Both the position numbers and the translations under genes were made by a program. The notes under the pieces are model-generated. The model ran no database searches, was not told where the DNA came from, and saw only the letters and a program-made list of their open reading frames with translations. Shown piece after piece: positions 1,783 through 60,315 of a stretch of DNA of 64,000 bases. Source of the stretch: Selenomonas sp. AE3005. Lineage in GTDB: Bacteria > Bacillota > Negativicutes > Selenomonadales > Selenomonadaceae. The stretch is taken from the NCBI RefSeq assembly GCF_000686945.1, contig NZ_KK366041.1:21685-85684 (forward strand). The letters are read 5' to 3'. How positions within the stretch are numbered: the stretch's first letter is position 1; the number at the start of each line of letters is the position of its first letter.

Positions 1783-1818
1783 GACGGCTGACAAGTGAAA
1801 TTTGACTTGTCAGCCGCC
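1783..1818. repeat. Palindromic intergenic element, copy A
   Basis: A perfect 12-bp inverted repeat (CGGCTGACAAGT at 1785-1796 and its complement at 1805-1816) around an 8-base loop. The core GGCTGAC...GTCAGCCGCC recurs at 8696-8730 and 17931-17968. Together with copy B it brackets the helicase/PIWI-like module. It may act as a terminator or be a small repeated mobile or RNA element. Confidence 0.7.
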
Positions 1819-1951: not shown

Positions 1952-4276
1952 TTAACCCCCTGCCGCTGTCTCACGCACATGTAGATTGATAAATTCTCGT
2001 AAATATTTATACGGCATAGGCCATGCTGTATCCTCCCCCCATTTTATATGCTCAAATGTTAAAAAGGGCAGCAGGCAATGATATAAAAACTCCTTGCGCT
2101 CGTCTAAATCACATAACCCTTCCAGATATATCTCCCGCGCCGGAGTACCGCGCTCTAATACACTTGCACGAATTCCGCCATTTTGACCGCGCCAATAGTA
2201 GATATGTTTACCATCTTCCATAAAGGCAGCATGTAACCCCAGCATCATACGATAATACCTGTCTATAATTTCACCACTTCTATAGTTTAATTTTATATCA
2301 ATATTCAGTTTTTCTTTTATTATTTTTTGCACTGTTAAAAACATCGATCTATCCGTTACACCATCAGGCAATTTCTTCCGCAAATCTTCAGGAAAAACAT
2401 TTACGCTTGCTTTATATTCTTTATATGCTTTTTTTAAGCCAGAAAAGGTGATATATTCACTTTCACCATTATTTTTTATCATATCTTTTAAACAAGCTAC
2501 CAATGGATATGTTTTATCTCCGTCCATACTTACGGTATTATACCATGTTTTTAAAGACAGACCTTTAGTTTCTACTTCTCTACCTGCCTTCACAAAATCA
2601 TAGAATTCTCTATAATTAGGCAAGGGATAGATTTTTCCCAATGATATTCCAAAGTTCACTGTTTTGCCTTTCCATTCAGTCATACCAGCTAAGGTAATTG
2701 GTTTATCCTTTCTTTCTATGCTACGATACATACACGCAAGCTGTTTATCTGAAATTTCTCGCTCCGTATCAACACCTTCTTTCATAAATTTCATTGTACC
2801 ATTGGGAGAGAGAATACTAAAGTAAAGCGCTTCATCTTTATACAAATATTTTCCGGGATTAGGATTTTTGGTGCAAAGCAGTAAATCTGACTCTAAAAGA
2901 TTTTTTCCACCAGTCAAATAAAATGAACTAATTTGCTGGCGAATATCAGCTATCTCACGAAGTTCCATAAGTTCCGTTCTTATCAAACCCTGATACCCAT
3001 CATTTCTATCGATGATAACTTGTTGCACAGTTTTGCTAGTCAAACGAACAGAAACCCCCAGTACATTTTCTTTGTCATAATATGGATCATTTTCATGTTG
3101 CCCTTGATAGTCATTGCGATCTTTTCCCAAGATAATCATGCCCACACGATTTAAACCATCCCATTTCATGTAAGGTTTATCGCTCATTTCACAGCATTCT
3201 ACAGATTTAAAGTATGACGCAAAAGCATTCTGTAACGCCCTAAAATAAAGTGACTGCGGGACACCTATCGAGTCACAATCTCTGGCAAAGCAAATATCCA
3301 GATGGATATTTGTTGTCCACTTATATATCATTTCAGCCCATAGCTTATCCTGCGGCACAGGACTAATCATCTCCATATTCTCATCGAATTTCTGTTTTTT
3401 ATTCCTTTTATATGAGCGAATTTCAGTTGCATCTATTTCCTTAAACACAAAAGATATAATATCACCTGCAATGTTTGACGCAGATTCCAATACGTTATGC
3501 ATTTGATACAATTTGGCAGATTTTTCATCCTTCCCTTTTAACAGAAAGGCAAGCTCTTCTTTCCTGTTTCTTAAGAACCAAGGTTTTTTTTGCACAAAAA
3601 CACCATTAAGAATTTCATCGCTGGGTATATCCCTATACTTGCATCGCCGCATATAATTCCCACCAACTAAAAACTGCTCCCGTGGTCTTTTTTTACCCTT
3701 ATTCCAAAAATACCAATTATCCCCTTGAATTGACGCAAATGTTACTACCTTAAACGATAAAATATTACGTTCATCAACCCGAAGTTCTAAAGCAGGCGCA
3801 ACTGTACCGTTACCGGCTTTCCTCGTTTTCTGTACTATTAGACATCTTCCAGTCGAATTACTGAACGGATCCTGCCATGTCACAGCATTAAGAAACAACT
3901 GCCTGATAATAGATGTACTATCCTGATATTTCCTATAAAATCTCAAATCCTGTTCACTTTTAATTATCTGAATGTGATAACCTGAATCGCCACAATTTTC
4001 CTTAGTATAATTGTGCAAAGCTATATGATAATCCTGCTCATCAATGTTATTATCCTTTTTGAAAAGAATATACACAGCTCTTTCTCCAAAACCATTATAT
4101 AGACATGATACAACAGAAGAAAGTTTCGCGTTTTTTATATGTTCAAAGAAAACATCATATTGGAACTTTAAGTCTTTATCTCTATCCGAGGATAGGCGAA
4201 ACAGATAATAACGCTTATTCAACGACTCCCAATTTACCACATCATTAACAAATTGATTTATTTTAATTTTTGCCAT
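1952..4276 (-). CDS. Putative PIWI/Argonaute-like partner (DdmE-like) of a helicase-nuclease
   Basis: 774 residues, start overlapping the end of the helicase-nuclease gene by 14 bases, so both are one translation unit. The C-terminus reads GTPAREIYL (from about residue 710), then LLPFLTFEHIKW and WPMPYKYLREF. This order resembles the end of PIWI domains (GTARP-type strand, LT..W, LP..YA). I cannot locate a DEDX catalytic tetrad, so if it is an Argonaute relative it is probably a non-cleaving, guide-binding one. The N-terminal half (MAKIKINQF onwards) is not recognised. DdmE proteins and pPIWI-RE proteins are known partners of helicases and nucleases in plasmid defence, and the gene pairing here is the main support. 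It is AT-rich compared with flanking genes, suggesting transfer. The alternative is an unrelated helicase accessory protein. Confidence 0.45.
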   Translation of the reverse strand: MAKIKINQFVNDVVNWESLNKRYYLFRLSSDRDKDLKFQYDVFFEHIKNAKLSSVVSCLYNGFGERAVYILFKKDNNIDEQDYHIALHNYTKENCGDSGYHIQIIKSEQDLRFYRKYQDSTSIIRQLFLNAVTWQDPFSNSTGRCLIVQKTRKAGNGTVAPALELRVDERNILSFKVVTFASIQGDNWYFWNKGKKRPREQFLVGGNYMRRCKYRDIPSDEILNGVFVQKKPWFLRNRKEELAFLLKGKDEKSAKLYQMHNVLESASNIAGDIISFVFKEIDATEIRSYKRNKKQKFDENMEMISPVPQDKLWAEMIYKWTTNIHLDICFARDCDSIGVPQSLYFRALQNAFASYFKSVECCEMSDKPYMKWDGLNRVGMIILGKDRNDYQGQHENDPYYDKENVLGVSVRLTSKTVQQVIIDRNDGYQGLIRTELMELREIADIRQQISSFYLTGGKNLLESDLLLCTKNPNPGKYLYKDEALYFSILSPNGTMKFMKEGVDTEREISDKQLACMYRSIERKDKPITLAGMTEWKGKTVNFGISLGKIYPLPNYREFYDFVKAGREVETKGLSLKTWYNTVSMDGDKTYPLVACLKDMIKNNGESEYITFSGLKKAYKEYKASVNVFPEDLRKKLPDGVTDRSMFLTVQKIIKEKLNIDIKLNYRSGEIIDRYYRMMLGLHAAFMEDGKHIYYWRGQNGGIRASVLERGTPAREIYLEGLCDLDERKEFLYHCLLPFLTFEHIKWGEDTAWPMPYKYLREFINLHVRETAAGG

Positions 4277-7200
4277 TATTTTCCCCTCCTATCATATCCG
4301 CAATAAAATTTTTTATAGCCTCTTTGGCCTCATCACAAATATTATCAACCAAGTATTTTCCCACAATAGGCTTAAGCAGTTGCGGGATTTGAAGAATATG
4401 TAGTTTTCTGTCTTCTAATTCGATAAAGTATTTCTTCGGAGTAAGTATTGGAGTGTTTACACGATTGCTCAAAATCCGTGTATTTATAATGACAACTCCT
4501 TGTATATCCTTTCCACTGTCGATAACTGTTTTTATTTTTTTCGATAAATGACCTAAACTATAAGAAGATTCGACATAATCGTGAAAGCTGTTTTCTGTCA
4601 TAAATTTAGCATCAAAGTATATACCTGAAGCCTCTTTGATTGCTCTATCAAAAAGCTCGTAAATATTTTCTGATAAAGCCTTCGGCGTATACCCCAAATA
4701 TTTTGACAGGAAAACATCCTGTATGATTTCACCAATACGTCCCTTACAAACCTGTTCAAAAAAAGATGGTACTGGAAGATACAGTTGCGGCTCCCATTCT
4801 ATAGGAATATGCAATTTTTTAAAAGCTTCGTGGAACTCTATACATTGATCATACAATGGCAATTGTAATGCATCCGCAGACATCTCAGACCATCCATCTC
4901 CCGGAGGAGTATCACTAACCTCAGAAATACGCACATATCGACCGGTTTGCCTATTGTTCTCAAATTTATAATATCTTTTGCAAATTGGTTTTCCTGTCAG
5001 AGAGCGAATAAATATATTTCGCTCTTTCGCTCCCTCTATGCTAGGATACAGAAAATCTGATGAATCTCTGCACTTAACATAGTTTTGTAAGCAATAAGTA
5101 TGCAGGTCATCAAACTTCAATCTAGCAAGTTCATCGGCTTTACTTTGGCCTTCTTCCCCAAAGTGTTGGGCGATTTCCGATAACAGTTTTCCAAAATTAT
5201 TAGATGCTGTTATAAGATGTTGTTTATTTAATTGTTCAATATGCTGCTCATATGAATAGTCTGGACTAACACCACGTTTATTTGCTTCCTCCATAATGAT
5301 TTTAATATAATGATTATGATTAAGTTTTGATGCGCCATAAATAATCTGCCATGGATACTTTAACAATTCATTTTGCACGCAAATCATTATTTCACTGTAT
5401 CTGTTTTTCCCACGTGTAATACGCCCTATCGCTTGTACGACGATTTGCAAAGCTGATATTTGCGTACTAATCAATTTTTTTGGACTAAAATTATTAAATG
5501 TTTTCGTATTTTCATCTTGAATGATTTTTAATGCATAATTATTCAGCCCGGTCTTAAATTCGTCAATAGATATTTCATTATAATCTCTAAGTCTACAAAG
5601 ATAGTCCAATCCTTGGATAAATGCTTCAGGAAGTTTTGAAATAATGTTCATCTTATCTTGTGGCATGATAAACGGGAAAACATATGTAGGCATACCGGTA
5701 TAACATCCCTGAAAGTCAACCATAATAAACGGATCTGATGAGATTTGATGATTAAACCAACGATTAACTTGTTCTTCGTAATGCTGCTTTCCTGCCTTTA
5801 TTATTTTGAGACGTTTTCTTTCAAATTCGGTTACATCATCATCATCTCCTATGCAATGAATCCTTTCATCATATAAATCCTGAAATGGCGCCGGATAAAT
5901 TGGATTAAACGAACGCCCGGCCGATGCGTATGAGGTAATAATGAAAGCACGCTCTCCTTTTGCCAATCGGAATAGAACAGGACGTAAATTCTTTTCATTA
6001 ACATCATATTCCGTTTTTTCATCGCGAAAATGAGTTGCCTTAAAGAAATATAACCATTTATCACATTCATAAAATTCATATTTTGTATGAATATAATTAT
6101 TTAATACGGCAATGACTAAAGCAGCTCTTTTCAAAAAATGTTCATACTCACATAATGAAGCCGTATTAAAAAACAGAAAGGAACGAATATCATTATCCAA
6201 GAAACTGCGGAAACACTCAAGAAAAATACAAATATATCGCATCCTGTACTCCATTTTTCCGTCAGCTTTTATTTTTTGTATCAAAATTTCTAATTCTTCA
6301 TAAAAATCTTCTGCATAGCCTACAGAATCCTCAACACCTATATCAGCCAAGGCATCACAAAGGTCTTTTTTTCGGTAATAATGTAATCTTTTACATATTT
6401 CATCTTTTATATCCTGAGTAGATATTTCTATTAGTTTCTCATCAGGAACAATACAAGATACATTAACCTCCTGTTTTTTAGTATTAAAGCGATTTTTCGA
6501 ATCGAAGTTTCGGCTTATCACTCGACAAAGATTATCTGAAGGATAATATAGTATTTTGTCTCCAATATCAGAAATGTAATTATAGTTAAGATTTGTAAGA
6601 ATTGAATCATAATGTGACGTAGCGGAAAGGCCATAAATCAACACATGACTATCATTATCGTTTCTCAACTTATTATCAGCAGAAAGATTTTTATTGTTTG
6701 GCGATGTTAAATGAAGGAAAAAATTTTCACATGACGATACACAATCACATGATGATATATCATCTTTTTGATAATGACTATAATCCTGTTTTGGCCACAC
6801 TATATGATAACCACGATTAAAAAACGAATAAACAGCCGGAATAAACAGGAATTTATTGTTCCTACGATAACCAAAAGTATCGCGGCTTAATTCTTGCAGC
6901 ACTAAACTCACATATGGATTGGCATATATGCTCGTATTGGAATCATATAAGCCAAACTCGTCCAACACCGTCGTTACGCATTGTTTCAAATTAATTTCAC
7001 GAAAGATACTTAAATCTTCATTATAATTGTTTTCTTTATTCGATTTACTCCGTATTATCTTTTTATTTATCAATTCATGATAGATGCGTACAATAAAGGA
7101 TATTTTGGCAATCACGCTGCGATTAAACATGGTAATATCATGTATAAAATCACGTAACTTTAAATAATTATTATCATCTTGCTTTTCCTTTTTTCCAACA

Positions 7201-8516
7201 GTGGAACATATTTTATTATGCGGTGACCATTCATCAGAATCTCCATCTTTATATGGCATAATATATTCAAATATATTTTTTTCACTTTCATGATTCGATA
7301 ATGAACATCTTAATAATGGATAGCCAAATATAGCTAAGTAAATAAACTCCGGTTCATCATTTTCAAATTTAAAATCATTAGGCAAAAAAGGATATTTTTC
7401 CAGAATATTATCGATTTTACTGTCTATTTGTTCGCAATATTTGGTTATTTTGTTATGAAGTACCTTATTTTCACCTTCTAATTCACCATGAAAACCTTTG
7501 CCTAATTTCGATAACCGCTTATAGCGTAGTTTTAAAAGTTGTTGTGCTAATCCGATAATTCCATATCGATTATTTCTTGCCTCATCATATCGAATTTTAT
7601 TATATTCAATTATAAACTCATCTAGTTCATCAATAAATAAGTGAATAACCGGCTTAGATGAAAATTGCTTTCTAATCGAATTAAAATAAAATGATGGTGC
7701 AATAATTGGATCAATAATCCGCAGTGCTTTTGCAGCTGTCATAAAAAAGACCTTACGTTTAGGATTAAATAATTCCATTGCAGGAAATAACTTTCGAAAT
7801 ATCCCAAAAATTCGTTCTTCTTTGTATATATTTTCATAATCTTCCCATTCATTGATTTCAGCTATTTTTTTCAATATTATTTTTAAGTTCGTAACCATGA
7901 CTCTATAATTAGCTATTTCAAAAGCATCATCTTTTTTCAACAAAAATATTTGACTATAATACGTGGAACATTCGATATTTGTATTATCATTTTTCCCGGT
8001 CATCAAGATATAATGATAATACATTTTTGCACAATCTCGATAACTCTTTAAAAAATTTTCTAAATAAGGGGCTAGTTTTCCACCAAATCTTTCGCAATAT
8101 TCTATGAATGGTGTAATCATTTGTTCTACTTTTTGAACCATTCCTTCTTCCTTTAATTCTGAAAAATTATCTCCCCAGCATTCTTTCAAAGCGTCCAAGC
8201 GAGAATGTAAAATAACATAATTTTCTTTCAGCTTAGGAAATGAACCATTATTTATATCCTGAATAGGGGCATCCAATTTCTTGGGATAGATATAAAATAG
8301 CTTAAATTCCTTTATAATATCGCCATCTTTTCTATGGTTTACCTTTGGTTCTATTTTTCCCTCCAGTAGTGCTTCTGCAAACCAAAGAAATGAATATGTT
8401 TTTCCTTGTCCGGTAGCTGCATCTACTAACATCATATTGTGACGATAATCCATTTGATACTGTTCGTAAAACTCTTTATACAGTAATGCTATATCCGGAC
8501 ACTGTTTATAATTCAT
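4263..8516 (-). CDS. SF2 helicase fused to PD-(D/E)XK nuclease (DdmD-like)
   Basis: 1417 residues from the ATG at 8516, which follows a strong ribosome site (GGGAGGAG, five bases away). The frame stays open upstream to 8639, but those extra 41 codons belong to a fragment of another gene (see 8557-8694). Helicase motifs: Walker A DAATGQGKT (residues 32-40), Walker B FIDELDE (D296, E297), motif III LSATS (631-633), a TSYASAGRSFNP segment, and motif VI QAIGRITRG (1028-1036, two Arg). Near the C-terminus GRIGEII (E1263) and YFDAKF (D1302, K1304) fit a PD-(D/E)XK nuclease. Large unassigned inserts lie between the RecA lobes. A helicase-nuclease coupled to a PIWI-like gene is the DdmDE plan for destroying plasmids. 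The assignment to that family is an inference; the helicase part is secure. Confidence 0.75.
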   Translation of the reverse strand: MNYKQCPDIALLYKEFYEQYQMDYRHNMMLVDAATGQGKTYSFLWFAEALLEGKIEPKVNHRKDGDIIKEFKLFYIYPKKLDAPIQDINNGSFPKLKENYVILHSRLDALKECWGDNFSELKEEGMVQKVEQMITPFIEYCERFGGKLAPYLENFLKSYRDCAKMYYHYILMTGKNDNTNIECSTYYSQIFLLKKDDAFEIANYRVMVTNLKIILKKIAEINEWEDYENIYKEERIFGIFRKLFPAMELFNPKRKVFFMTAAKALRIIDPIIAPSFYFNSIRKQFSSKPVIHLFIDELDEFIIEYNKIRYDEARNNRYGIIGLAQQLLKLRYKRLSKLGKGFHGELEGENKVLHNKITKYCEQIDSKIDNILEKYPFLPNDFKFENDEPEFIYLAIFGYPLLRCSLSNHESEKNIFEYIMPYKDGDSDEWSPHNKICSTVGKKEKQDDNNYLKLRDFIHDITMFNRSVIAKISFIVRIYHELINKKIIRSKSNKENNYNEDLSIFREINLKQCVTTVLDEFGLYDSNTSIYANPYVSLVLQELSRDTFGYRRNNKFLFIPAVYSFFNRGYHIVWPKQDYSHYQKDDISSCDCVSSCENFFLHLTSPNNKNLSADNKLRNDNDSHVLIYGLSATSHYDSILTNLNYNYISDIGDKILYYPSDNLCRVISRNFDSKNRFNTKKQEVNVSCIVPDEKLIEISTQDIKDEICKRLHYYRKKDLCDALADIGVEDSVGYAEDFYEELEILIQKIKADGKMEYRMRYICIFLECFRSFLDNDIRSFLFFNTASLCEYEHFLKRAALVIAVLNNYIHTKYEFYECDKWLYFFKATHFRDEKTEYDVNEKNLRPVLFRLAKGERAFIITSYASAGRSFNPIYPAPFQDLYDERIHCIGDDDDVTEFERKRLKIIKAGKQHYEEQVNRWFNHQISSDPFIMVDFQGCYTGMPTYVFPFIMPQDKMNIISKLPEAFIQGLDYLCRLRDYNEISIDEFKTGLNNYALKIIQDENTKTFNNFSPKKLISTQISALQIVVQAIGRITRGKNRYSEIMICVQNELLKYPWQIIYGASKLNHNHYIKIIMEEANKRGVSPDYSYEQHIEQLNKQHLITASNNFGKLLSEIAQHFGEEGQSKADELARLKFDDLHTYCLQNYVKCRDSSDFLYPSIEGAKERNIFIRSLTGKPICKRYYKFENNRQTGRYVRISEVSDTPPGDGWSEMSADALQLPLYDQCIEFHEAFKKLHIPIEWEPQLYLPVPSFFEQVCKGRIGEIIQDVFLSKYLGYTPKALSENIYELFDRAIKEASGIYFDAKFMTENSFHDYVESSYSLGHLSKKIKTVIDSGKDIQGVVIINTRILSNRVNTPILTPKKYFIELEDRKLHILQIPQLLKPIVGKYLVDNICDEAKEAIKNFIADMIGGENNGKN

Positions 8517-8556: not shown

Positions 8557-8694
8557 TTGGACACAGGCCATTCTTCTTCCGTAAGCGGCGGCTTGCCCTG
8601 CTCCTTCCTCTGCTGATTTTCCCACTCTCGCAGGTCCAACCGTTCTTCAATCGATATTGTACTCCATGAATCTCCGGGGGCCAGGTTCCGTATT
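8557..8694 (-). pseudogene. Internal fragment of a paralogue of the gene at 9845-10501
   Basis: These 138 bases align without gaps to 9954-10091, with about 13 mismatches counted by eye. Translated, both give the block EERL(E/D)LREWEN and GKPPLTEEEWPV in the same frame. The homology stops abruptly at both ends: at 8557, about 40 bases upstream of the helicase start, and at 8694, directly beside palindromic copy B. It is therefore a remnant of a second copy of the 218-residue gene, broken where the helicase module joins. It has no start of its own and makes the helicase reading frame look 41 codons too long. Confidence 0.8.
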
Positions 8695-8695
8695 A

Positions 8696-8764
8696 GGCGG
8701 CTGACAGGTCAATTTGACTCGTCAGCCGCCCGGCTTGTTTATTGACTTGTCATTTTTCCAGCCG
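8696..8764. repeat. Palindromic intergenic element, copy B
   Basis: Perfect 10-bp arms GGCGGCTGAC (8696-8705) and GTCAGCCGCC (8721-8730) around a TTGAC-containing loop. The sequence GTCATTTTTCCAGCCGT follows (from 8749) and is also found 3' of copy C, so the repeated unit extends beyond the hairpin. It abuts the truncated paralogue fragment exactly. Confidence 0.75.
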
Positions 8765-9867: not shown

Positions 9868-10501
9868 CCTCCGGCAAAGCCCCCTTATTTTTAAACTCTC
9901 TTTTTATCTCCACATAAGCCATCTGCCCTGAAAAAGCAACTTTCAATGGTCTCTTGGGCACAGGCCATTCCTCTTCTGTGAGCGGTGGCTTGCCCTGCTC
10001 CTTTCTCTGCTCATTTTCCCACTCCCGCAGTTCCAGCCGTTCTTCAATCGATATTGTATTCCATGAATCATCGGGGGCCAGGTTCCGTATTTCACTGTTC
10101 AGCGTCACCTTGTCAAAGGCCAGCACTCCATAATCATTCGGCTTTTCCTGCTCATTGTTTTCTACCCAGTAATGATAGATCGCAATATTGCCATCTACTT
10201 CCATCAATTTAAAAGTTACCATGTTGCTTTTCTCCATTTCGCTTGACCATTCCAGAATATTGTCCTGCATCTTAATCATCTTCCCATGATGATAGCGTAC
10301 TTCCTCCGGCGTAAAACCTTTAACCCCCGTCATTTCCCCATCCGGCAGCAGGCACTCCATACGGTCATAATCGTTGCGCTCGGCGCTCCAGCGTTCAAAA
10401 ATGACACGCACACACATTCTGCCGTCAATATTTATCGGATCAGAACAGATAACCTTTGTTCCATCCGAAAAGTCCAAAAAAGGATTTATCATCTTTGTCA
10501 T
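9845..10501 (-). CDS. Hypothetical protein, 218 residues, with paralogue fragment nearby
   Basis: Starts ATG after AAGAAGAGAG. The N-terminal half looks beta-rich (DGTKVICSDPINIDGRMCV). The middle carries a YDRMECLLPDG region, and the C-terminal third carries LREWENEQRKEQGKPPLTEE, which is duplicated as a fragment at 8557-8694. No family is recognised. The existence of a second, broken copy beside the helicase module suggests that this gene or its surroundings serve as a recombination target, or that the module replaced a paralogous neighbour. Confidence 0.6.
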   Translation of the reverse strand: MTKMINPFLDFSDGTKVICSDPINIDGRMCVRVIFERWSAERNDYDRMECLLPDGEMTGVKGFTPEEVRYHHGKMIKMQDNILEWSSEMEKSNMVTFKLMEVDGNIAIYHYWVENNEQEKPNDYGVLAFDKVTLNSEIRNLAPDDSWNTISIEERLELREWENEQRKEQGKPPLTEEEWPVPKRPLKVAFSGQMAYVEIKREFKNKGALPEDGRNYWY

Positions 10502-17921: not shown

Positions 17922-17991
17922 GACAAAGAGGGCGGCTGACAGGTCAAAATTTTGACTAGTCAGCCGCCCTTTTTGTCATTTTTCCAGCCGT
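17922..17991. repeat. Palindromic intergenic element, copy C (terminator)
   Basis: Arms 17922-17940 and 17959-17977 pair at 18 of 19 positions (core GGCGGCTGAC/GTCAGCCGCC), with an A-rich left flank and a T-run right flank. It therefore looks like a bidirectional terminator for the HTH gene. The 3' flank GTCATTTTTCCAGCCGT matches the one beside copy B. Confidence 0.8.
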
Positions 17992-31255: not shown

Positions 31256-34200
31256 TTAATCGACTACAACTTCCTCCACAACATCATTTTTCTGTAGGAA
31301 ATCGGCGTTCACAGCGTCCATATCTATGGACATCTGCTTCATCGCATTGACACGTCTGGTCAACCATGTACCGTCAAAGGTAAATTTACCATGCACATTG
31401 GTGTCACGCTCGCGCATCATATCCACTACACTTAAATTATCGCCATAGAGTTTTGTGTAATACCTGCCGCAATCGACTAGGACGGTTCCGTGAGTCCTGA
31501 GCATTCCATCAGTATAAAGCTGGTAGGAACGCTCTTTACTATAAGCCAACCCCAAGTTATTCCAATAAGCCAGCTGTTCCCCATCTCTGGTGGGAGTACG
31601 CCCATAAATGGCCAAATCCGTCTGCGCGTTATCAAGATAAATCTTATCTACCGCCAGCACATCGGCCACAGAAAGGTTTCCTTCATCTACGTGAAGATAC
31701 CCGCTGTTCCCCCAAAGGCTTAGCATTTCTGTACCACCTTTAGAGCGAAGACTCCCGACATAGAATTCTTTGCCGATGAGTTTATTATCATCAGTACCCG
31801 TCATCGAAAAATGGAAAACCTTTCCACCATTATTTGCGGTAATGCCATCGACGTAGATAAAGTTACCTGCCAGCGCACTATCTCCACTCACAACGGCCTC
31901 TTTCTCAAAATAGATGCCGCCATCGCTACGGATCTTCGCATTCAAATCCCGCTTAGCATTTATCCTGTCGGTCACATGCAGGTCGCCATTTCTTCCATTC
32001 AGCAGCACATCGCGGCCGGATTCAATCTGACCATTCTGCTCAATGACGAAACTAAGTTCGCCTGGCTTATATTGGCTGTTTCCGGCAGTCATGGAAATAT
32101 CGCCTGTCTGCGTGGAAGTTTTACCATAAATATAGATTTTACCCAAATCCACATCAATATTGATATTCTCCCGAGCAGTTACGGTTTCTACATCCGGGCT
32201 ATTATCACCAATGGTGACATTGCCAGTTCCTACCTCAACGCCAATGTTTCCTTTTTCTGCCCGCACTTCTTTTCCTATGGTAATATTCCCCAAACCAGCT
32301 GCAAGATTCACATTTCCTGCTGCAGTGGCAACATTAGCCCCCGCAACAACATTTCCTTGCTTAGTGGAAATATCTATATCCTTTTCAGCAGTTATATCTT
32401 TTCCTATCAGGATATTACCACTACCGGATAACAGACGAACCGAGCCTACATCCGAATTGATAGAATGCCCCCCTATGATGTTTCCTTTATCCGTGGAAAC
32501 ATCCACGTTCTTTGTAACGGACACATCATTGTCTAAATAGATACCGCCATTGCTGCTGATTTTCGCATTCAACCCCTGCTTAGCATTTATTCTGTCGGTC
32601 ACATGCAAATCGCCATTTCTTCCATTCAGCAACACATCGCGGCCGGATTCAATCTGGCCATTCTGCTCAATAACGAAGTTAAGTTCACCTGGCTTATATT
32701 GGCTGTTTCCGGCAGCCATGGAAATATCTCCTGTCTGCGTGGAAGTTTTACCATAAATATAGATTTTGCCCACATCCACGCCAATGTTGATATTCTCATG
32801 TGCGGTTACGGTTTCCACATCTGGCCCATTGTCACCAATAGTGACATTACCTGTGCTTACCTGAACGCCAATGCTGCCTTTTTCGGCTCGCACTTCTTTT
32901 CCTACAGCAATATCACCATTTTCGGCTGCAAGATTTACATTGCCATTCCCTGAAACCACTGTAGCTCCCACATTGATAGTCCCCACAGCAGCAGCCATGA
33001 CAATATCCTGCGTAGCACGGACATCATGACCAACGTAGATATCACCATCCGTAGTTTTTACGCTTACTTTTCCTGCTACATTCACATCTGTATCAAAGTA
33101 TATACCTCCCTTTTCCTCCAATTCAGTCACCAAATCCTGTTTGGCCTGGATACGGTCTGAAACATGCAAATCACCATTACCTACATTCAAATGGATGGCC
33201 CCACCGGCTTCCAATTTTCCGTTCTGGTCGATAATAAAGGAACTATTATCTTCTCCCGGAATATATTGTTCTCTATGTGCCGTTATGGAAATATCTCCAA
33301 TTTCTGTAGAAGTTTTACCATAAACTACAACTTTGCCATCCTTAGCCGTAAGGTCAATATTCTGTTTTGCGGTGACGGTCTTCACATCCGGCCCGTTGTT
33401 GCCAATGAGAATATCCCCCTGACCAGAGAGAATGTCAATACTTCCTTCCTGAGCCGTGACTGTCTTAACAATCCCGATATTTCCTTTGTCCGTTTGGATG
33501 GACACATTGCCAGCCTTGGCCAGAATATCGCCAGCATCCCCCATGTTCGTGTCGCCTACAACGACATTACCCTGATGAGTGGAAATAGTCACGTCTTTCC
33601 CTGCTGTGACATCCTTTCCTACCAAAACATCGCCGATTTCTGACTGCAAACGGATAGAACCTTCCGTCGAATTGACGTTATTTCCTACTTCGATATTTCC
33701 CTCTTTAGCTGTTATGGCAATATCCTTAGCAGCCTGAACCTCATCGTCCACACGGATTTTTCCCTGGCTGTCGGTGGTAATGTCAATTTCGCCTTTCTGT
33801 GCCGTGACACTCTTCAAGATATCAATACTTCCTTTGTCTGTCTTAATGGACACATTCCCATTCTTAGCCAGTACATCACCATCAACATTACCATCATCGA
33901 CAATGGATGCAGCACCTATAATCATAGCACCATCATGGCTGGAAATCGTGACCGCATCACCGGCAGTGATATCCTTGCCAATCAGAATATCGCCTTTCCC
34001 GGTCTGCAGATTAACCGTTCCCTCCTCCGAGTTGACAGTACGTCCCACAGCTATGATGCCGTTTTCTGTGGTAATATTTACATCTCCGGTTACTTCCACA
34101 TTCGTGCCAAAAATAACACTTCCCTGTTCACTTATGGCGGCAGTCAGGCCCTTCTCGGCACTAAGTTTATCCGTAATGTAGATATCGCCATTGCGCCCAT

Positions 34201-37200
34201 AGAGATTTATTCCACCGCCAGATTTAATCAAGCCATCCTCTTTGATGATGAAGTTACCATTAGCTGCGCCCTTTATATACACATCCTTTCCGGCTTTCAT
34301 GCTGATGTCACCACTCGTCGTAACCGTATGTCCTTGAATGGTAATCGTACCTGTGTTGGTGCCAATGCTGACATTCTTATTCGCAATAAGCGATTTCTCA
34401 TCCGACACATTATCACGGCCAACCGTAATATTACCCTTGCCCGTTTCCAGCTTAATGCTTTCATTTGTGGATTCTATCCCTTTGACAATGGCTATATCGC
34501 CCTGACCTGTACCTATAGTGACATCGCCCTTCGCCGTTATCGTTTTTTCATTCACTTCATCTTTTTGGCCAATAGAGATATCTCCCTGTCCAGAAATATC
34601 AACCGTGACAGTCCCGGCTTTAGCCTCTAACTTGCCCTCTAAGTCGACATCCCCATTGCCCTTCACAATGAAGTTCATATCTTTGCCAGCCTCCAGCAAA
34701 GTTTCGCCTTGCGACTGTTCGAGCATGCTCGCAACAGTACCGATATGGATACCGCTGCCTGCACTAGCCGAAGCGGCATGCCAGACTTCTACATCAATAC
34801 TATTCCCCGCTTTCATTGTGCCAATGTAGTAAACCGCATCTTTAGCCAGCATGAAGACATCATTTCCTGCCTCCATGCCTTTGCCAAGCCCGTGGATAGA
34901 GCCTTCACCAGTGCTTGCCAGTACAATGTCATTTTTCGCATATACATTGCCCAGCAGTTCCACATCTTTGCCAGCAGCCAGCCTCAAGCTGCCCGTAGCA
35001 GCCTGTGCATTGTTCCCGCCGAGAACGTGCAGCACATCAGCAGAATCAGCCAAAAATCTTACATTTCCCTGCTCTGCCAAATTGGTGAAATCTGCATCTC
35101 CCTTGATGCTATCCACCCTAGTACCTGCCACATAAGTTCCTTCATAATTGGTTATAGCCTTGACACTGCCAGCAATCTCATTGCCACCATCTTTTCCATC
35201 TGCCAGGAATATAGCAAACTTATTCTTGCTGCTTTCCAAAGATACGCCCTTGCCACTTTGGGTATCCACCACCGGTGCATCAATCTTGACACCTTCTGCC
35301 TCCTGGATAACACCACCAGCTTTAATGGTGAGAGAATTGTATTTATCTGCAAGTATATTAGCTACAGTAAAAGTATTATACGGCGCAGGCATTTTCTGCC
35401 CAGTGGTAATATCCCTGTGAATGTTCACATTAGCACCGGCAGTCAGCTCGATGTTGCCATTGTTGGCGGTCGTAGCATCGTTATTATTTGCCTGCAGTGC
35501 AGAAAGGACTTCAATGCTGCCATTGGCATCCCTGTTTTCAACTGCAATATTGCCCGCTACAGCCGGCTGAACGGAGATTTCCAAATCGTCTGTGTTGGTC
35601 TTGACCGAAACATCGCCCGCAATCGGCGCATCAGCCTGCGAAGCTTGTACCGCAATAGACTTGAACTTATTGCCAGTTCCCTGCAAATCAACCGTCTTGG
35701 CACTGGTGACATTCACATTCACAGCCTTGATGCCTGCATTAGCAGCCTGCTTGATATCCGCAGCGGTCGAAGTAAGAGTCACATTCTTGCCCGTACCTGC
35801 TTTAAAGATAGTGCCTGCCGTCTGAGACAGCGTTCCCTTAGCAGCCAGGGTAATATTGCCCGTAGCGGTAAAGTTACCCACATTAGCCAGACTGCCATTC
35901 TCACGGAGATTGGTTACAGAGATATCCCCTGCCACATCACGCTTAATTTCAACGGTCAGTGCATCGGCATTGTCCTTGATACGGACCTCACCGGCAATGG
36001 CCGGCTTTTCTGCCGCCTCGGTCGGCGTGCCATCAACCGTGATGCTGTTGAATTTGTTCTCAGCTTTATCCAAAAGCAGGGACTTGCCATTGAAGGTCTT
36101 CACCTTATCGGCGGTAATCGCACCTTTGCTCGTCTGGGTGATGCTGCCGTTGGTCGCCGTCAGCGTCAAATCCTTTTTCGCGCTTTGCGAATCCACTGCG
36201 GTCACTGCACCATCCAGCGTCAAATTTTCTGCAGCGGTAAGCGTCACATCGCCTCCGGCGTTAACGCTACCTGCCACTGCGGCCTTGTCCTTTTCCTCTT
36301 CCCGTCCCACAGCCAGGGAGCCTTCGCTTGCAGCGACAAACTCTTCTTTCGTATTGACGGTTCCGAGAACCAGAGTGCCGTTCGGGACATCTGTGTTATT
36401 CACGCCCTTGATATAGGCAGACTTCGCCGTGATGTTCACCGGGGCGCGGTCGTTCAAGATGCGGATTGCATAATCCTTATTACCCACAATACCAGTATTG
36501 GCGTTGGTGTTGAATTCCAATGTCTTTCCGGCGTTGATATAGGATTGGGCGATTTCCCCGTTGGCATTGCTCATCAGGAAGCCCTTGTCGCTATTCAGGG
36601 AAATGGTATCCTTGGCGAACATGGCTCCCAAACGGAGATAATCGGTAGTGTTCATGTTCTTGATGAACACATTTTTGTCGGCCCGGACCTCTGTCATATC
36701 TCCATCTCCGGACAGGTAAACTGTCAAGGGCTTGTCAGAAGAGCCAATGCTCTCCTGGCCACCGGTGAGGATCAGGTTCTTGCCCTTGATATTCGTCCCG
36801 TTGGCATCTGCGAGATCATTGTAGATTCCCAATTCGGAATGCAGGCGCACATCACCAGTCGCGCCATTCTGAGTGGCGTCAACCATGCCCACCTTGAGGG
36901 CGGAGTGCTCCCCGTTTTCGTCCTTGCGGCCCGCCACGGAGACATTGCCCCCCGCCTGCACATTGAGAGTGCCGCTGGCCTTGACGCCCAAGGGCATATT
37001 GCCCTTGATCTCAAAGGCCGTCAGATTGCCTGCTGCGTCCTTCTTGGCGGTGACATCAGAAGCACCCGCATTCATAAGCTGCTTCATGTAGTCAATTTTA
37101 TTATCCCCAGTCAGCTGCCCCACGGTAATAGTGGAGGCCGTGTCGGAGGAAGTACCCACTGCCTTGGCCGCGTTCAGCGTGATGTTCTTGCCCAGGACGT

Positions 37201-40200
37201 TGGCAGCCCGCTCCGTCTGTATGCTGCTGCCGCTGTCCTTGTTCACCAGCTTGTCGCTGACGGCGTAAAGCATCATGTCCTTGGTCCACTCGAATTTACG
37301 ATTTTCCGGCGCTGCCTTAGCAGCCAAATCCTTATAGGCAGCATCTGCCTCAAGATACTTAGTTGCATTTTCGTACTGCGCATACTTGTAGGCGGCGGAG
37401 TTAGCCTGCAGGAACTCGTCTGCTGTTTCATAGCTTGTATTGTCTTTCTTACGATACTGGGAATAATTTTTATCCGCCAGCTTAAAAGCCAGATAGTCCT
37501 TATCACCATTTTTCTCTAAATCCTGAAGAGCGCTTGCCGAAAGACTTCCATAGTGCGCTTTGTTGTCAAGATAGGATTGATACGCAGTTCTCTCTGCATT
37601 AGCTTCTTCTTGCCACTGAGTCTGCGTCTTACCCCCCTTATTAACATCATATACTTCTTCTATATTCGCTTTGTAGTCATCGCGAGCCTTCTCCAGCCCC
37701 TCGATATACGCCCCCTTATAAGTATAGTTCCCATTTGCATCCTTTTCGCCGTCAATCAAGCCGGCATCAATCCAGCGATGCACCATATCATCCACGGCCT
37801 CCGTGGAGCCGGATTTGTCGTCGCTGGGAAGCCCATCAATGAAACCGCCGTTTTCGACTTTCAGCGTCACGTCTCCAGTCTTGGACTCAATCTTGCCTAC
37901 GCGCATATCACCGCCAGCTGCCGACTCGGTCAGATAGATGTCACCGTGGGCACTGGCGTTGACCTGGGCACCGTAGCGGTCCGTGGCATAGACCAGATCC
38001 GAACCAGCGATTTGGATGGCCTGAGCAGAGGTGCCAATGCCGCCATTCTTACTGGTCAGATTGATGCCACGTCCCTCGACGGTTATGCCGCTGCCAAACT
38101 GGGTGATATTCCCTGAGGCGTTCAGCGTCACATCACCAATGGCCGCATCCTTATTGAAGCCAACATTCCCATCCTGGCTCTTCAGGGCCACGATTTCCAC
38201 GTTCCCGGGCAGGGACTGATTATTCAGCAAGCCACCCGTAGCAGTGATGTCGATATCCCCTTTGCCATTGGAAACGGCAGTGAGCTTGATATTATCCGTC
38301 GCAATGCTTCCGTCCATCGAGCCGATGGACGCGATATGGATATTCTTGATATCGTTCTTGGCCGACAGATTCACGATCTCGCTCTTCAGGGTCGTGCCGT
38401 CTTTTTGTAAGATGCCACCCGCTTGCGAGTCAATAGTCAGCGCAGCCTGATTATGGGAGTTCGCCACATTGCCCGTCAGGTTGATGCTGCCGCCTGCGGC
38501 GTTGGTGCTCTTGATATCGATCTTGCCCTTTTCGTCGCCGAGCAACCCGATAGTAATGGGCTGGGATGCGTTCAGTGTGTAGTTGTAGAGTTGAACGGTT
38601 TTCGTTCCGGTTTTCCAGCGATCCTTGGTATGTTTGAACCAGCCGAGGAACCCGCTTCGCCATTCATCGTGCGTCCTCTCCTTAATCTCTGAACTCAGGA
38701 CACGGGTACTCCCATCCAATTGCAGTTTGTCACTGTCTGGGGTATTGTTGCTTCCTTGCTTAATAACCGCGCCCTCGGGCAGTCCGAGTTTCTTTTGATC
38801 GTTTATTTCAACGGGCGTTTTATTCTTTGACATCTCTTTAAGCTGAGTTTCATTCACCGTCTCGATTGCGCCCCATAAACCTTTTCGCACATAGTGCTCA
38901 AAGGTTTGGGTTGTCTCCACGCTGACGCCGTTGACCCAGCTGTAGGTCTGGTCTTTTTTTACACCGTATGTCAAGTCATTTCCAACGGAAAGGTTATTCC
39001 CTGTCTTTGCAGCACTCGCATAAAGATCTCCGTCGTTCCTGTGGTCTTTCAAATACTGCGCATAGTGATCAATCGTGCGGGTCTGTCCCTTCCTGTACTC
39101 GGTCCAGGTATCCTTGGCCGTATCGGCGATGGTGATGACGCCTTCCCGCTGGTTGTTGAGGACATTGCCCACGTTCATATCGAGAGCGGTCTGGTTCGTC
39201 ACGGAGATGATAGCCGCGCCGTCCGCCGCCAGGATCTTGCCCTGGCCGGTGCTGGCAATCATGCCCGTCAGATAGACCTTGCCGCCCGCCGTATCGATGT
39301 CCTCCACAAAGAGTTGTTTCGTGGACGGATCCCAATAGACCTGCGGCACATAATCAAAGACTTTGTCCGTTTGGTTCCACTGCGCACCGCCATCGTTGAC
39401 CTTATACATGGTGCGGTTCTGCACAACCGCCGCACGGTCGGCAGACATCTTCTGCGCTTTGGCCAAATCCGTCTCCGTCACCGTGGCGGTGTAATTCTTA
39501 TAGCCGCTCTGAATCAAGCCGTTCACATTGATATTGGAAGCGGAAACATAGACATCCCGACCGGCAATATAGCCCGTAGCCGTTTGAGAAGAAGCAGACG
39601 GGGAATACGTCTCGGTACTGCTCTTTGAATCCGAATTCGTTTCGCTCAGGCCAAGAGCATTTTTCATCTCAGCGGCCTTCGTCGCCAAATACTTCTCTGG
39701 ATCGCCGTTGATGTTGACAATACCCTCTTTGTAATCCTGGGCAATGGTACCATTGGCCGCAACAAGGGTGACCGTGTTCCCGAATACGCCTGTGGGGCGA
39801 TCCGTCGTGCCGCCGCTGATGCGGATATCCCCGCTGGCATTGTTGATGGTCACATTGCCATGGAAATTGCTGATCTTGCCGTTGACCTCCACATCGGTGA
39901 TGGCGGTATAGGTAAACTTTCCATCACGTATATCTTTTTTGTACTGCGTCTTTTCTGCGTCCGTCAAATCGCTGTTGTCAATCTCCTGCGCAAGCCTGGA
40001 CGTCAACGAAAGGGTGCTCGTCTTGTCCCCGCTGAAGGTCTTGGTGTTCAGCACCTTCAGTCCCGCCGCTTCGCCGTTGGTTACGCCGTAGATTTCACTG
40101 AAGCGCGCTCCGGATTTGCTGACATTGATTTCATTGATTTTCTTGTTCCCCTCTGTTGTGCCCGGCGGAATGACGTTGTCTTTATTATAGACAATCTGAC

Positions 40201-43200
40201 CGCCCTGCTCTCCCATAATGATGTTGTTGATCTTCAGATAGGCGTCTGATTCGTTCGTAATGGTGACGCTGGGGGCGGAGTTGGCATGGAGTTTCCCCGT
40301 GCCGTTGAAGTCATTGGCCTGCACGTTGATATTGCCGCCGCTGGCAGCGATATCCGGAATTTCCACATAGTAAACGGGACGATTGGAATCGTTATCCAAT
40401 CCCAAATCTCTCATCTTTTGCTGAATCCTGTCACGCTCGGCGATATAAGCCGCCATTTGGGTTGCGTCTCCCTCATAAGCGGCAATCAGTTTTTTCAGTT
40501 CCGCAAGTCGCGCGCCCAGGGTATTGGCATAATCAAAGTTTCCCTGCGTAACGCCGTTCTTCACCCGATTGTTGGCCCGATTGTCTGGGGCCGTGATGGT
40601 CAGCCCGTTCGCCACGCTGCCGCCGATGATCAGATTGATGGGATCGGCAGTGCCCGCAATCAGGGAGCCGGTGACGCTCACCGTGCTCGTTTTGGGCATA
40701 GCTTCTTCCGCCACGACCGCATCAGAGGACAGGAACTTCTTGTTGATTTCTTTGCCGCCGTTCACCCATGCCCACTTGCTCTCGTCCGTAACTACATTTT
40801 CCTTGCCGCCGCTGGCGATAACATTGATATCTTTCGTGGAGCGCACCGTACCGCTGACGTCCACCGCGCCCCTGTCGGCGACGCTATTGTAATTCACCGT
40901 GGGGGAAGAAACGGGGATGGCCGTATAGTTATAGACACCCGCCTTGAGGTCGACGTTCAGATTGGAAAGAACACCGCCCTCGCTGGCGCCTGCATACAGG
41001 CCCACATTGCTGCCACTTTCGATGGTACCCGCCACATTTACATTGCTCTTGCGGTTCATGGTAGTCTCGTTCTTGCCAACGAGGACGCCGACAGCGCCCC
41101 CTACCGTGGCGTCGGCATGAGAATTCACTTTATGTTCGTCATAGGCGGCAAGGATGATGTCCTTGGCGGAAGCCGCCTTTTCATTGCTTAGTGCCGCGCC
41201 CCCCTTTACGTCCACCGTGTTGTTCACGGTAATATTGTTTTCAGTGACCGCATCCACAACACCTACTGCTGCACCGCCCTTGGCAGACGCATGGTTCGTC
41301 AGGTCGTTGTTAGAGGACGCAATGTATTCCTGCAAGTTGTTGGTAGTGATTTTCGCATTGCTGCCAATGGTGACAGTGCCGTTTTCCGTGACATCCAGCA
41401 GGCTGCGCAGACGGTTGCCGGAAATGGCACCGCCGAAATGATCTTTCAACGTATATGTCTGCACATCCTTGTTGCCCTTAGAATCGGTATCGTCATAGGC
41501 TCCTGTGTCAGCAGCGTTCGCTGTGCCGATGTGGACACGGTCAGCGTTGATGACCGTATTATCTGCCACTGTAGCATTCGTGGTTGTATTGATCTTGTTC
41601 TCCACACTGGTACCGCCCACGCCAATCACGCCGCCATGACCTTCCGTGGCCGTGAGTTTCGTCTCATCCTTCTGTTCGGCGAGAAGATAGACTTCGCCCG
41701 CAACATCCCACTTGCCGCCGAGGGTACTCGTGACCTTATTCGTAGATTTATTATCCACATGGGAGCCAATATAGCCTGCGAGGCCGCCACCACCAGCATC
41801 GGCCAGGGCTTTGCCCTTATTTTCGCCATAGGAGAAAACTCCCAGGCTGTTCAGTTTGTTCGTAACGCCGCTTTTACCCGTAAGCGTGGTGGTCAGCGTC
41901 TCATCGCCACTGATGATGGCTCGCGAATTGCCCACAGCCACGCCACCCACGGTGACATCATAGATATATGCCTTACGATCCACATAGGACATATTGCCCA
42001 AAAAGAGGGTGGTATTCTCGCCAAAGGTGCTGTTCGCCACATCGACCTTACCATTAGCCGTGGTTTCCAAGCGAACCGTATCCGGTGACACTGCCCCGGC
42101 GGAGATATTGTGCCCCTTGACATTGCCTTCGAGGGTGCGGCTGTTGGCGTTCCCCAGCATGGAGCTGAATATCGCCGTATTGGCGTTGAAAGTACCGCCG
42201 GCGACGCTAACTTCCGCTCCCATATCCATAACGCCCTTGCCCCGCATCGTGCTGATGCCGAGTACCGAAACGGCAGTATTGCCCGCGCTGATATTGGCCG
42301 TAGTGTCATTGGCTGCGCCCAGTTGGAAGGTGTTGGCCGTAAACGTGCCATCAGTCCCCGTAATTTTGGCCGCAGCATTCCCCTTGATTATCTTTCCGCT
42401 GCTGTCCTTCTCGCCATCCTCGATGGTCGCATGGTTCACCGCAACGTTTATGCCGCCTACACCAACACCCTGGGTATGAGCTTCCAGCGTGTTGGCTCTC
42501 TTCGCGTCGATGGTTATATCCTTGCCGGCGGCGATATTGTTCGTCCCTGCCAACGTGACACCCACGTTGTTTTTATTTTCCACACTGGCAAAAGTGGTGG
42601 TGACGTTCGCCGCAGCGACGCCCACACTGAGAATATTGGACTTATGTTTGCTCTCGTCCGTTGCGGCCACGGTGACATTTTCCGTGCCGGTAATGGAACT
42701 GTTCGCGATATTAACGTCCGTCGCACCCTTGTTGACGATGCCCGCGTAGCCGACACCCACGCCGCCAAGAGCACCCACGGTGACAGCCGTCACCTTGACA
42801 TCGGAGCCTTGTTTGCCATCCTGAGCCTGGGCCTGCGTCTGTATAGCGTTAATGTTGACATTTTTACCCGTGATGTTGGCGCTGTTCATAGTTACATCGG
42901 TGTCGTAGTTCGTATGAATGATGGCATCTGTGACGTTCACAGATGCGGCGCCGGCCGCCGTAACGCCCACATTTTTGGCAAAAATATCACTGGTCTCTTT
43001 CGCCAGCACATTGACATTATTCCCAGCCAACAGTGTAGTTCCATCGACTTCGGTATGGATTCCCATCTTCTTGGTATCGGGCGTAGAAAGGCTTACGCTC
43101 GTATTTCTGGCCGTTGCAAGGTCACTATCCGTGCCCTTCAGGCCGAAGAACTTCGCACCAGCGCCCAGGGACCCCTTAGCCGCGTTCACACTGGTCAAAT

Positions 43201-46200
43201 GCTTGTTAATCTCATTTTGGGTAGTGGCATTAACGCCCGTGACGTTGCCGCTCTCGTCTTTGGCACTCGAAAGCTGAGCATCCGTGATGCCCTTGTTAAT
43301 AGAGGTGACAGCCACATTGACACCCACACCGATACCGCCGGCAGCCGCGCCCGTCACCTGACTGTCAAAGCTGCGCGTTTCTTCTGCCGTCACGTCAATA
43401 TCGTTTGCTGCCTTTACGGAACTGTTGCCCGTCACATGAGCGCTGACGCTGCTGTTGATATTGTTCAGGGCGACAGCCACACCGACACCGCCAACACCGC
43501 CGGCACCTACACCGCCCGTGGCTTTTACCGTCAGTTTATCCTCGGCTTTCACGGTGGCATCATAAGCTTCCAACTGACTTCTGGTGACCAGAGCCGCCGT
43601 CTCACTGGTGGTATTATTTATACCCACGTTGGCAGCCACGCCCGCACCTATGCCTGCACCTAAGCTGGCTGTAACCAAAAGATTATTCCATTTATTCTCG
43701 TTTTTCGCCGCGACGGAGATATTCTTTCCTTCCGTGCTCTCCTTGGCTTTCAGACTGCTGTCCGCCACTTCTGCCTTGACCGTTGACGTATCGTCCATAA
43801 CGGACACACCAGCCCCAGCCGCTACCGCAACCATGCCAACAGACGCACTGACCGAGACATTCTCTGTGTGACTGTTGCCAAGATGCTCAGCCTGAATCTT
43901 CGCTTGGCCGTCAAATTCTGCGTTAACGTTTTTCAAGAGCGCACTGGTGACGCTGGTGTTCTTGTGGCGCATGATGCTGTCACCGGAGGAAACGCTCACT
44001 TTGCCAGCACTGCCTGCCGCCGCAAAGGACAAAGCTGAAGAGCCATGCTTAGCTATGGCATCCACAGTCAGATTTTTGGCGTATACATTCTTCTTTGTGG
44101 TGTTGGAGGAAATCTCCGCCACCGTCTGCCGCCCCAAAGTCTCCCAATTAGCGGACACACCAACAGAGACGCCCACGCCGCCACCGCCGATGGAGGGCGT
44201 ACCGGTAAAGGTGCCAAGATTCGTATAGTCAACGGCGTTCACATTAACATCAGATGCATTGCCAGCGGAATTGATGGCGGTATTCTGAATTTTAGCCGTA
44301 GTGGAGCTGGGCTTGTCGGCTGTTTCTCCCTGAATAGAATTGATGTTCACCGTACCGTCAACGTTGACGCCTACACTGGCAGAAATCGCCGCGCCTCCAG
44401 AGGACAATTGAGAGATGATCGTATGCGTAGCCGAGCTGTCCACCACAATACCTTTCTTTTCCACATCGGTACGGCTGCTGCTAAGCTGGTCTCTGGTGGT
44501 CTCAACAGTCAATTTTTCTGCTTTGAATACCTTGTCAGCGCTCGGTCTGGAAACTTTGATGGCCTCCCCGTCTGCAGCCGTAAGGGAACCGCCGCTCACC
44601 AAAGCATTGGTGCTGCCGGTTATTTTGTTGATGGAGACAGCTGCCCCGAGACCTACCTTGGTATTGGCACCAATGGCAAATCCCCCGGCGAAATTGTAGA
44701 GGCGGTCGTCGCTCTGCGCTACCACGCCTACACTGCTGTTCGAGGTGAGGTTCTGATTCTTGAGGATGGCGTCCACGTTGTTGCCAATGTAGTTGTAGCT
44801 GCCGGAACCGGCAAAGGCCACCTGACCACCTACGCCTACCAGTCCTCCTACGCCTACAGAATGGATATCGCCATCCCCCGTAGCCCGCACCTGCGTAAGG
44901 CCGGCATTGACCGTAGTGGTACCGCTGTCCGTGGCCATTTCCGCCTTGGTATCCTGATTCATGCGGTTGATGGCAACGCCTGCAGCGCCCTTAACCTGAG
45001 ACCCGATAGACACACTGCCACCGACACCCACGGTGTTAATCTTGCTCTTGGTGTCAGCCGTAACATCGATGGTTGGATGATTAGACGAACTGCCGGCGTT
45101 GATATCGCTGTTGTTCAGAGCAGCCGTGCTGTCCTTATAGATATCCGATACAGCGGCGCCCCCTTGAAGGTTGAACCAATTTTTGCCCCAGCCCACGCCA
45201 AAGCCGGCGCCCACAGTGATAACACGGGACTTCTCCAGTTCATTTTGGTCATTTTTCTTGCTGTCCTTGGCAGATACTTCAATCTTGCCATCATTCGTTG
45301 TAGTGATATCGGCATGATTGATTTCGGCCCGCAGTCTCTCCTTGTTGCTGGACGAACCAACGGACGTATAAGCCACAGCACCGCCGACGCCCACTTTCGT
45401 GCCGCCGATAGATACGGCACCGGCTACAGTGGTCTTTTTCGACAGTTCCTCAGCCGTGACGGAAAGTTCCTTCAAGTTTTCCAGTTTTGTATTTCCATCT
45501 GCGGTCTTGCCGTCAATGACACTCTCTGTGTTGTTCACGCCACGATTGATGGCTACAGTTCCCACTGCACCGGCAACAGACTGGCTAGTATTCACCTCCA
45601 CACCGCCAGCCACAGCCAAAGCCTTGCTCTGGTTGGTGGTTGCCAGCTTGACGGAGTTATCCGTACCGTTTGCGTCCAAAATAACAGTGTTCCCAGTCAG
45701 ATATGTTCCGGTGGTGTTGTTGAGCGAATTGTATGCCAAAGACAGCCCCATAGCCATGCCCTTGCCGCCAGCCACTTCACCGGCGATATTGATGATGGAT
45801 GAGGTATTCTGCGCCTGCTGGCTGATATTTTTGCCCGTGATGGTATTGTTGGCAAAATTGACCTTTGTATCATTCTTGAGGTCATTCCAACTGCCGGAAC
45901 CGGCACCGTTGAACGCCTTGCCGCCAATGGCCACACCTGCCCCTACGGAAATAATCTTGGCATCTGTTGCCGCCTCACCATTCACGTTGTCGGCCGTAAT
46001 GGTGGAATCTTTGATATCTGCCGCGATATCGTTCTTCACATAGTTGTAGGCAATACCTGCACCGGCAGCCACATCACTGCTCAGACCACCTGCCATAGCG
46101 GCAGTAATGGTAAGGCTATGATTTTTGCCCAATTCATCCTTGGCAGCGCTCTCGTCTTGCGCGGCAGCATCTGCAATCTTGCCTTCGTCAGTATTTTTTA

Positions 46201-50740: not shown

Positions 50741-50821
50741 CGTAACCACCAATCCTTTTCTTGCAAGCTGCCCAAACTTCTATCCTTGTATTATCCGGGC
50801 AGCCCAGCCTCCTTGCACGGC

Positions 50822-57001: not shown

Positions 57002-57275
57002 AGTCAACAGCTCCTTTATGTTATATAGCACAATATTATTCAAGAAACCAAACTACCTTGTCATGAAATTTCTTTTTATGTTATCGGTGTTATTACCACT
57101 CTATGCTATTTTCATCAGATTATGACCGCTTAGACAAATACTTACAATGATAAATTCGCTATTATAACGGAGCTTTCCTTTTATTTTTCAAGGAAGTGGC
57201 CTTCCACTGCAGTTGGAGCTTTCAACATATCCAACTTGCCAATAATATAGTCTAAGATTATGTTTATCTTAAAAA

Positions 57276-57497: not shown

Positions 57498-58499
57498 ATG
57501 GCTGAGTTAACCAACCGCAAGTCTTTCACCACTACTCTTTCCAATGACAATGTGGAGAAACTGAAGACCTTATCTGAAAAGAAAGGCGTACCTAAGACAA
57601 AAATTCTCGATGATGCCGTAAATACCCTCTATGAAAAGGAGGAAAGCATGGAACAAGATGCCAAGAAACATAAGGGAGTCGTTATTTCCGTCAGCAACAA
57701 CAAAGGTGGCGTTGGTAAAACTACCACGGTAGCAGCCTTGGCCGACCTGCTTTCCAAAAAGGGGAAGAATGTCCTGCTCATTGATGCTGACCCTCAGGGC
57801 AACCTTTCCAACACTTTTAACTATATGGGCGAAGGTCAAAATCAGATTCTGGACAATTACCTGGGCAATCTGTTAAAAGATAGAATGAGAGCCGTTCAGG
57901 ACGATGCGCCGGATAAATGCGTGAAACTCGACTACTTTATCCTCAGCTCCACCGAATTCCCACGCATTGATCTTATCTGCTCAGATATCCGCCTTGACGG
58001 TACGTATGCTGAACTCAATGCTGGCGGCGTCCGTTATGCCTATATCATCGCTGATATTATCGAAGAGGCGAAGGCTATGGACAAATACGACTATATTCTA
58101 GTAGACAGCAGACCTGCCATGAATAACGAGGTGGCCATGTTCCTGCTGGGTACTGATTATGTAATCATCCCTGTAGAGCCGGCAAAACATGCTATCTTGG
58201 GTGCTAATGCAATGGCTCGTTTCGTTCTTACCACAGCTAAGCAGCGTCCGAGCCTCAAAATTCTCGGTGCCTTCATGACCAAGGTTGTAGACCGCACAAA
58301 ATCTTTCCATGATTTTCTCCCCATGGTCCAGAATGGCTGGGACAAAATGCTTTTCGAGACTCGCATCCCCTACAACCAGGATGTAATCAACTCCGAAAAC
58401 TTAAGTGCTCCTGTTACTTATAGAAAGCCTGCATGTAAGGCATCTAAAGCATATATCAAACTTTGTGACGAGGTGGTGGCTAGAATTGAGCAGCAATAA
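57498..58499 (+). CDS. parA: ParA partition ATPase with N-terminal ribbon-helix-helix
   Basis: 333 residues, ATG after AGGAGGAAAG. Residues 1-50 (RKSFTTTLSNDNVEKLKTLS, then KTKILDDAVNTLYEKEE) resemble a ribbon-helix-helix DNA-binding domain. Residues 58 onward are a deviant-Walker ATPase: VSNNKGGVGKTTTVAALADL, LLIDADPQGNLS, and YDYILVDSRPAMNN. It moves plasmid copies using ATP-dependent nucleoid binding together with ParB. The RHH front replaces the usual HTH of larger ParA proteins and probably represses the operon. The end overlaps the parB start. Confidence 0.88.
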   Translation: MAELTNRKSFTTTLSNDNVEKLKTLSEKKGVPKTKILDDAVNTLYEKEESMEQDAKKHKGVVISVSNNKGGVGKTTTVAALADLLSKKGKNVLLIDADPQGNLSNTFNYMGEGQNQILDNYLGNLLKDRMRAVQDDAPDKCVKLDYFILSSTEFPRIDLICSDIRLDGTYAELNAGGVRYAYIIADIIEEAKAMDKYDYILVDSRPAMNNEVAMFLLGTDYVIIPVEPAKHAILGANAMARFVLTTAKQRPSLKILGAFMTKVVDRTKSFHDFLPMVQNGWDKMLFETRIPYNQDVINSENLSAPVTYRKPACKASKAYIKLCDEVVARIEQQ

Positions 58500-59649: not shown

Positions 59650-59655
59650 CAGGTG

Positions 59656-59692
59656 AAAAGGACCGACTATTGTAATAAAGTCTGTCCTTTTT
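59656..59692 (+). terminator. Terminator of the par operon
   Basis: AAAAGGAC-GACT and AGTC-GTCCTTTT arms (one mismatch) around a ten-base loop, ending in a T-run. Confidence 0.75.
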
Positions 59693-59845: not shown

Positions 59846-59848
59846 AAT

Positions 59849-60312: not shown

Positions 60313-60315
60313 ACT

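Follow-up and report, generated by a model that had tools for sequence, protein, structure and literature searches.

A gene pair in Selenomonas sp. AE3005 that reads as a deeply diverged DdmDE plasmid-defense operon

The closest described relatives of the locus analyzed here are the DdmDE systems, in which DdmE, an inactive Argonaute with DNA guides, recruits the helicase-nuclease DdmD, which degrades plasmids (PMC12409362). The pPIWI-RE systems form a triad composed of an REase encoded as a separate first gene, a DinG helicase, and the pPIWI-RE protein (PMC3702460). Within the window, which is the whole analyzed stretch of 64,000 nucleotides from Selenomonas sp. AE3005 (contig NZ_KK366041.1), we examined a pair of genes on the minus strand that, judged by their sequences, very probably represent a deeply diverged DdmDE plasmid-defense operon.

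The first gene of the pair (4263..8516) encodes a DdmD-like protein of 1417 aa with an SF2 helicase and a C-terminal PD-(D/E)XK nuclease, and the second (1952..4276) encodes a DdmE-like protein of 774 aa, putatively an inactive long prokaryotic Argonaute with MID and PIWI domains predicted by homology. Both genes are real and lie at the coordinates given in an earlier note on this DNA, which had also correctly reported a 14-nt overlap (4263..4276, minus strand). Because the two reading frames overlap in this way, the genes appear to form one operon with linked translation. An alternative, longer in-frame start for the 1417-aa gene is present at a TTG at 8639. The ATG at 8516 is preferable, because the orthologue in genome G244 is likewise 1417 aa long, a strong Shine-Dalgarno sequence (GGGAGGAG) lies 5' of this ATG, and the region upstream of 8516 that the TTG start would add is part of a 138-nt repeat shared with the neighboring gene. 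The two copies of this direct repeat (8557-8694 and 9954-10091) are 91% identical, and the former, directly upstream of the operon, is a partial copy of the neighboring gene.

A hairpin with a T-rich tail (1783..1818, minus strand; 14 pairs, 8 of them G-C) lies 3' of the operon and is its probable terminator, while a similar hairpin upstream (8696..8730, minus strand) bounds the transcription unit. A third was observed at 17931-17968, and together the three mark the limits of the operon and of the gene cluster that follows. These hairpins are of the GGCGGCTGAC-N-AGTCAAATT type, with six half-site matches observed against 0.04 expected. We set aside a role for them as recombination sites: the core occurs at just one other site in the genome, and the stricter whole-hairpin pattern had no match there.

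Elsewhere, the window contains a plasmid-type replication and partition block (57498-61835) that encodes ParA, a ParB-like protein and a Rep_3 initiator, and the contig also carries a MobA/MobL relaxase and an integrase. Other genes of the contig, examined by eye, look chromosomal. A GmrSD-type (type IV restriction) protein encoded at 55190-57043 is likely another defense gene on the same contig. The window further holds a 6498-aa open reading frame (31256-50752) with the look of a large filamentous surface adhesin, adjoined by an outer-membrane transporter-like gene (50822-52486).

Among 380 genomes of the class, the helicase gene was found outside the host in one, G244, which belongs to the same genus. 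The G244 pair shares 82% (1417-aa protein) and 79% (774-aa protein) amino acid identity with the window pair, in the same order and with exactly the same 14-nt overlap (L005, 2407-2420). The dN/dS ratio between the two species was approximately 0.17 for each gene (0.095/0.574 and 0.112/0.678), indicating that both genes are under purifying selection. The gene-neighborhood search that the earlier note had suggested shows the pair recurring together in one further species of the genus, and its co-conservation is established. Just upstream of the G244 operon is a gene with a PIN7 (NYN-like) domain (L003, 13424-13819), and none was seen at the equivalent place in the window. By eye, a putative WYL-like regulator lies several kb from the G244 operon (L004, 8097-9068), and others lie directly beside ddmD in G447 (L020, 8976-9971) and in L022 (4943-5797).

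To assign the proteins to families, test profiles of DdmD and DdmE were prepared from six pairs, with the window and G244 left out, and run across the whole host genome. The DdmD profile matched the 1417-aa gene and nothing else, with two segments in collinear order (E 5e-10 and 1.6e-5), and the sole match of the DdmE profile was the 774-aa gene (E 1e-4). In the reverse search, a two-sequence helicase profile (window and G244) was compared with all PDB sequences, and its best match was the DdmD 9ix4 (E 0.0044), in three collinear segments corresponding to motif III, motif VI and the nuclease entry. Following the literature, we take this DdmD and the DdmE 9iw3 to be those of Lactobacillus casei; the PDB entries name the molecule only. 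The same profile also retrieved the DdmD locus of genome G681, and the G681 DdmD, used as a query, led back to the G244 orthologue (E 1.6e-4). The G681 locus is a bona fide DdmD/DdmE pair, matching the PADLOC DdmD model at 8.8e-40, and PDB DdmD and DdmE at 4.5e-55 and 3.7e-14, respectively.

Profile-profile comparison, a check that the earlier note had also proposed, was done with hhalign and gave for the helicases a score of 221, a probability of 99.7 and an E-value of 3e-26 over 918 columns, or most of DdmD, compared to 14.5 for the reversed-profile control. For the partner proteins, the default run gave a probability of 64 (E 6.6e-5); when columns were defined by the first row, the score was 78 and the probability 96 (E 4.8e-9). 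Reversed profiles, mismatched partners and 100 shuffles served as controls and scored 14-27, with a shuffle maximum of 27 for DdmE, so that both proteins align with their families far above the controls. These alignments, and the unbiased profile searches in both directions, support the note's reading of the pair as diverged DdmDE, and establish the family membership of both proteins at the level of sequence. It is conceivable that an unrelated helicase-nuclease and an unrelated partner resemble DdmDE through generic SF2 and PD-(D/E)XK motifs only, as identity to confirmed members is just 15-20% and neither protein has a curated domain match. However, the DdmD matches reach beyond the generic motifs, and the partner, as independent evidence, matches DdmE over nearly its whole length, making a chance likeness of this kind very improbable.

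The DdmE alignment of the 774-aa protein extends from residue 4 to residue 762. The earlier note had described an unrecognized N-terminal half in this protein; because the alignment covers these residues, that half corresponds to the N-terminal half of DdmE itself. The note's PIWI-like C-terminus is a real family match, as PMPYKYLREF aligns with PFPFKYLREF of a true DdmE. In common with the family, the protein ends in the P-x-P-x-KYL-x-E motif, and it also has several of the family's invariant residues, scattered along the sequence. Judged from alignment columns, the DdmE family shows no set of conserved acidic residues in its PIWI half that would suggest a catalytic DEDX tetrad. AlphaFold2 run on the single sequence of the 774-aa protein gave a pLDDT of 31.

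In the 1417-aa protein, the SF2 helicase motifs (I, II, III, V and VI) and the nuclease E...D-x-K residues noticed earlier are present at matching DdmD positions. On the minus strand, Walker A or motif I (ATGQGKT, residues 34-40, 8397..8417) aligns with motif I of DdmD, and motif II (IDELD, residues 295-299, 7620..7634) has an invariant I, D, E and final D. Motif III (SAT, residues 631-633, 6618..6626) and motif VI (QAIGRITR, residues 1028-1035, 5412..5435) were placed by the family alignment. The nuclease core (4602..4745, minus strand) consists of KGRIGE (E1263), YELFD (E1287, D1290) and FDAKF (D1302, K1304), and these five residues are invariant in 8/8 DdmD-family proteins. The helicase and nuclease catalytic residues are thus conserved, and motif V is divergent in the window protein (SAGRSFNP versus TLGAGQNL). 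Not every homologue in the set carries motif I: the L. intestinalis DdmD, in its annotated form, is without it.

With the active residues of DdmD retained, the DdmDE mechanism is the likeliest for the window pair. Judged by homology, the 774-aa protein, as a putative catalytically inactive long Argonaute, would hold a short DNA guide and pair with plasmid DNA, and would then recruit the 1417-aa protein. The SF2 helicase of the latter may translocate on the displaced strand while its C-terminal nuclease cuts, and the outcome would be loss of the plasmid. We infer the guide, the recruitment, the translocation and the plasmid loss from the published DdmDE work.

Standard annotation missed the pair. 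Pfam and NCBIfam searches at E-values up to 1 returned chance-level matches at most for both proteins, and PADLOC called no DdmD or DdmE in the window pair, giving two weak, short matches, one to a type IV DinG helicase (E 0.0017), the other to Cas8a (E 0.0048). The PADLOC DdmD model found the G244 orthologue in a genome scan (E 8.3e-5), but missed it in the whole-protein scan. The DinG match, which is restricted to the motif VI region, might point to a pPIWI-RE system, an option that the earlier note had raised and that would likewise place a PIWI protein, a helicase and a nuclease in a single operon. Unlike the pPIWI-RE triad with its DinG helicase and separate nuclease, however, the operon here has two genes, and helicase and nuclease are parts of one protein. 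Pfam showed no pPIWI-RE domain at E-values up to 1, no sequence match to these systems was found, and the DdmD and DdmE profiles match both window proteins. We therefore consider membership in pPIWI-RE extremely improbable, and retain DdmDE as the assignment.

Whole-genome searches alone turned up relatives of the pair; direct searches, with either protein by tblastn in plasmid and phage records or with peptide patterns in genome and viral contigs, gave no match. Plasmids of Nostoc, Persicobacter, Lactobacillus intestinalis and Cetobacterium (L015, L016, L017 and L018), together with genome G447, supplied further DdmDE-like pairs, and a V. cholerae-type DdmD (L022, 1190 aa) was retrieved from IMG/VR. 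Two weak matches in the phylum were rejected as DdmD: the G533 locus holds two unrelated genes, and G709 has no open reading frame of DdmD size at the place. Other new matches of the combined DdmD profile cover the motif I region only, and were taken as other helicases.

Two of the plasmid pairs lie near the plasmid's own replication genes (rep-parA-parB in Persicobacter and rep in L. intestinalis). The occurrence of DdmDE-like pairs on plasmids suggests plasmid-versus-plasmid use, and raises the question of how a plasmid carries a plasmid-destroying system without destroying itself. Because relatives sit on plasmids, indiscriminate plasmid killing would be self-harming, and the same machine might act mainly against phage or conjugating DNA instead of resident plasmids. 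The large distance of the window pair from characterized members and the insertions in its proteins are compatible with such a changed target; however, the catalytic landmarks are kept and nothing points to any specific other target, and we regard this alternative as unlikely. Equally doubtful is the more elaborate idea that the pair founds a DdmDE subtype of its own among Negativicutes-like gut bacteria, in which the extra DdmD segments and altered motif V change target choice. Mobile elements would then carry the pair and use it to compete with one another, not only in host defense.

The earlier note's suggestion of a new sister type exceeds the evidence, as other DdmDE pairs differ among themselves almost as much, with identities that are mostly 13-30% apart from two closer pairs. 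Trees were star-like with long branches, and the window pair had no resolved position. Protein size, which the note had treated as a distinguishing mark, ranges from 1137 to 1417 aa for DdmD and from 606 to 774 aa for DdmE in our set; the window proteins are the longest of all but do not stand apart, with a DdmD of 1366 aa in Cetobacterium and proteins of 1241 and 761 aa in Persicobacter. The window pair is thus best called a putative divergent DdmDE member, not a separate type. The diversity of DdmDE exceeds what present annotation models detect, and surveys that rely on PADLOC, Pfam or NCBIfam will therefore undercount this plasmid-defense system. From the divergent pairs gathered here, better profiles can be built and the essential parts of DdmD and DdmE located.

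Compared to the L. casei DdmDE (9ix4, 9iw3) and the related G681, Nostoc and G447 pairs, the window pair is likewise a two-gene operon in the order D then E, with a common SF2 helicase and C-terminal nuclease, the landmark residues, and the P-x-P-x-KYL-x-E C-terminus; its partner protein can be aligned almost end to end with their DdmE. It differs from them in its identity of approximately 17-20%, in the length of DdmD, which is 1417 aa with insertions versus 1143-1192 aa, and in motif V. With the V. cholerae DdmDE (8u0u, 9bf1 and 9ezx for DdmD; 8u0j and 9ezy for DdmE), compared via L022, the window pair shares architecture and landmark residues at 16% identity, whereas its DdmD is approximately 230 residues longer and its DdmE approximately 85 residues longer.
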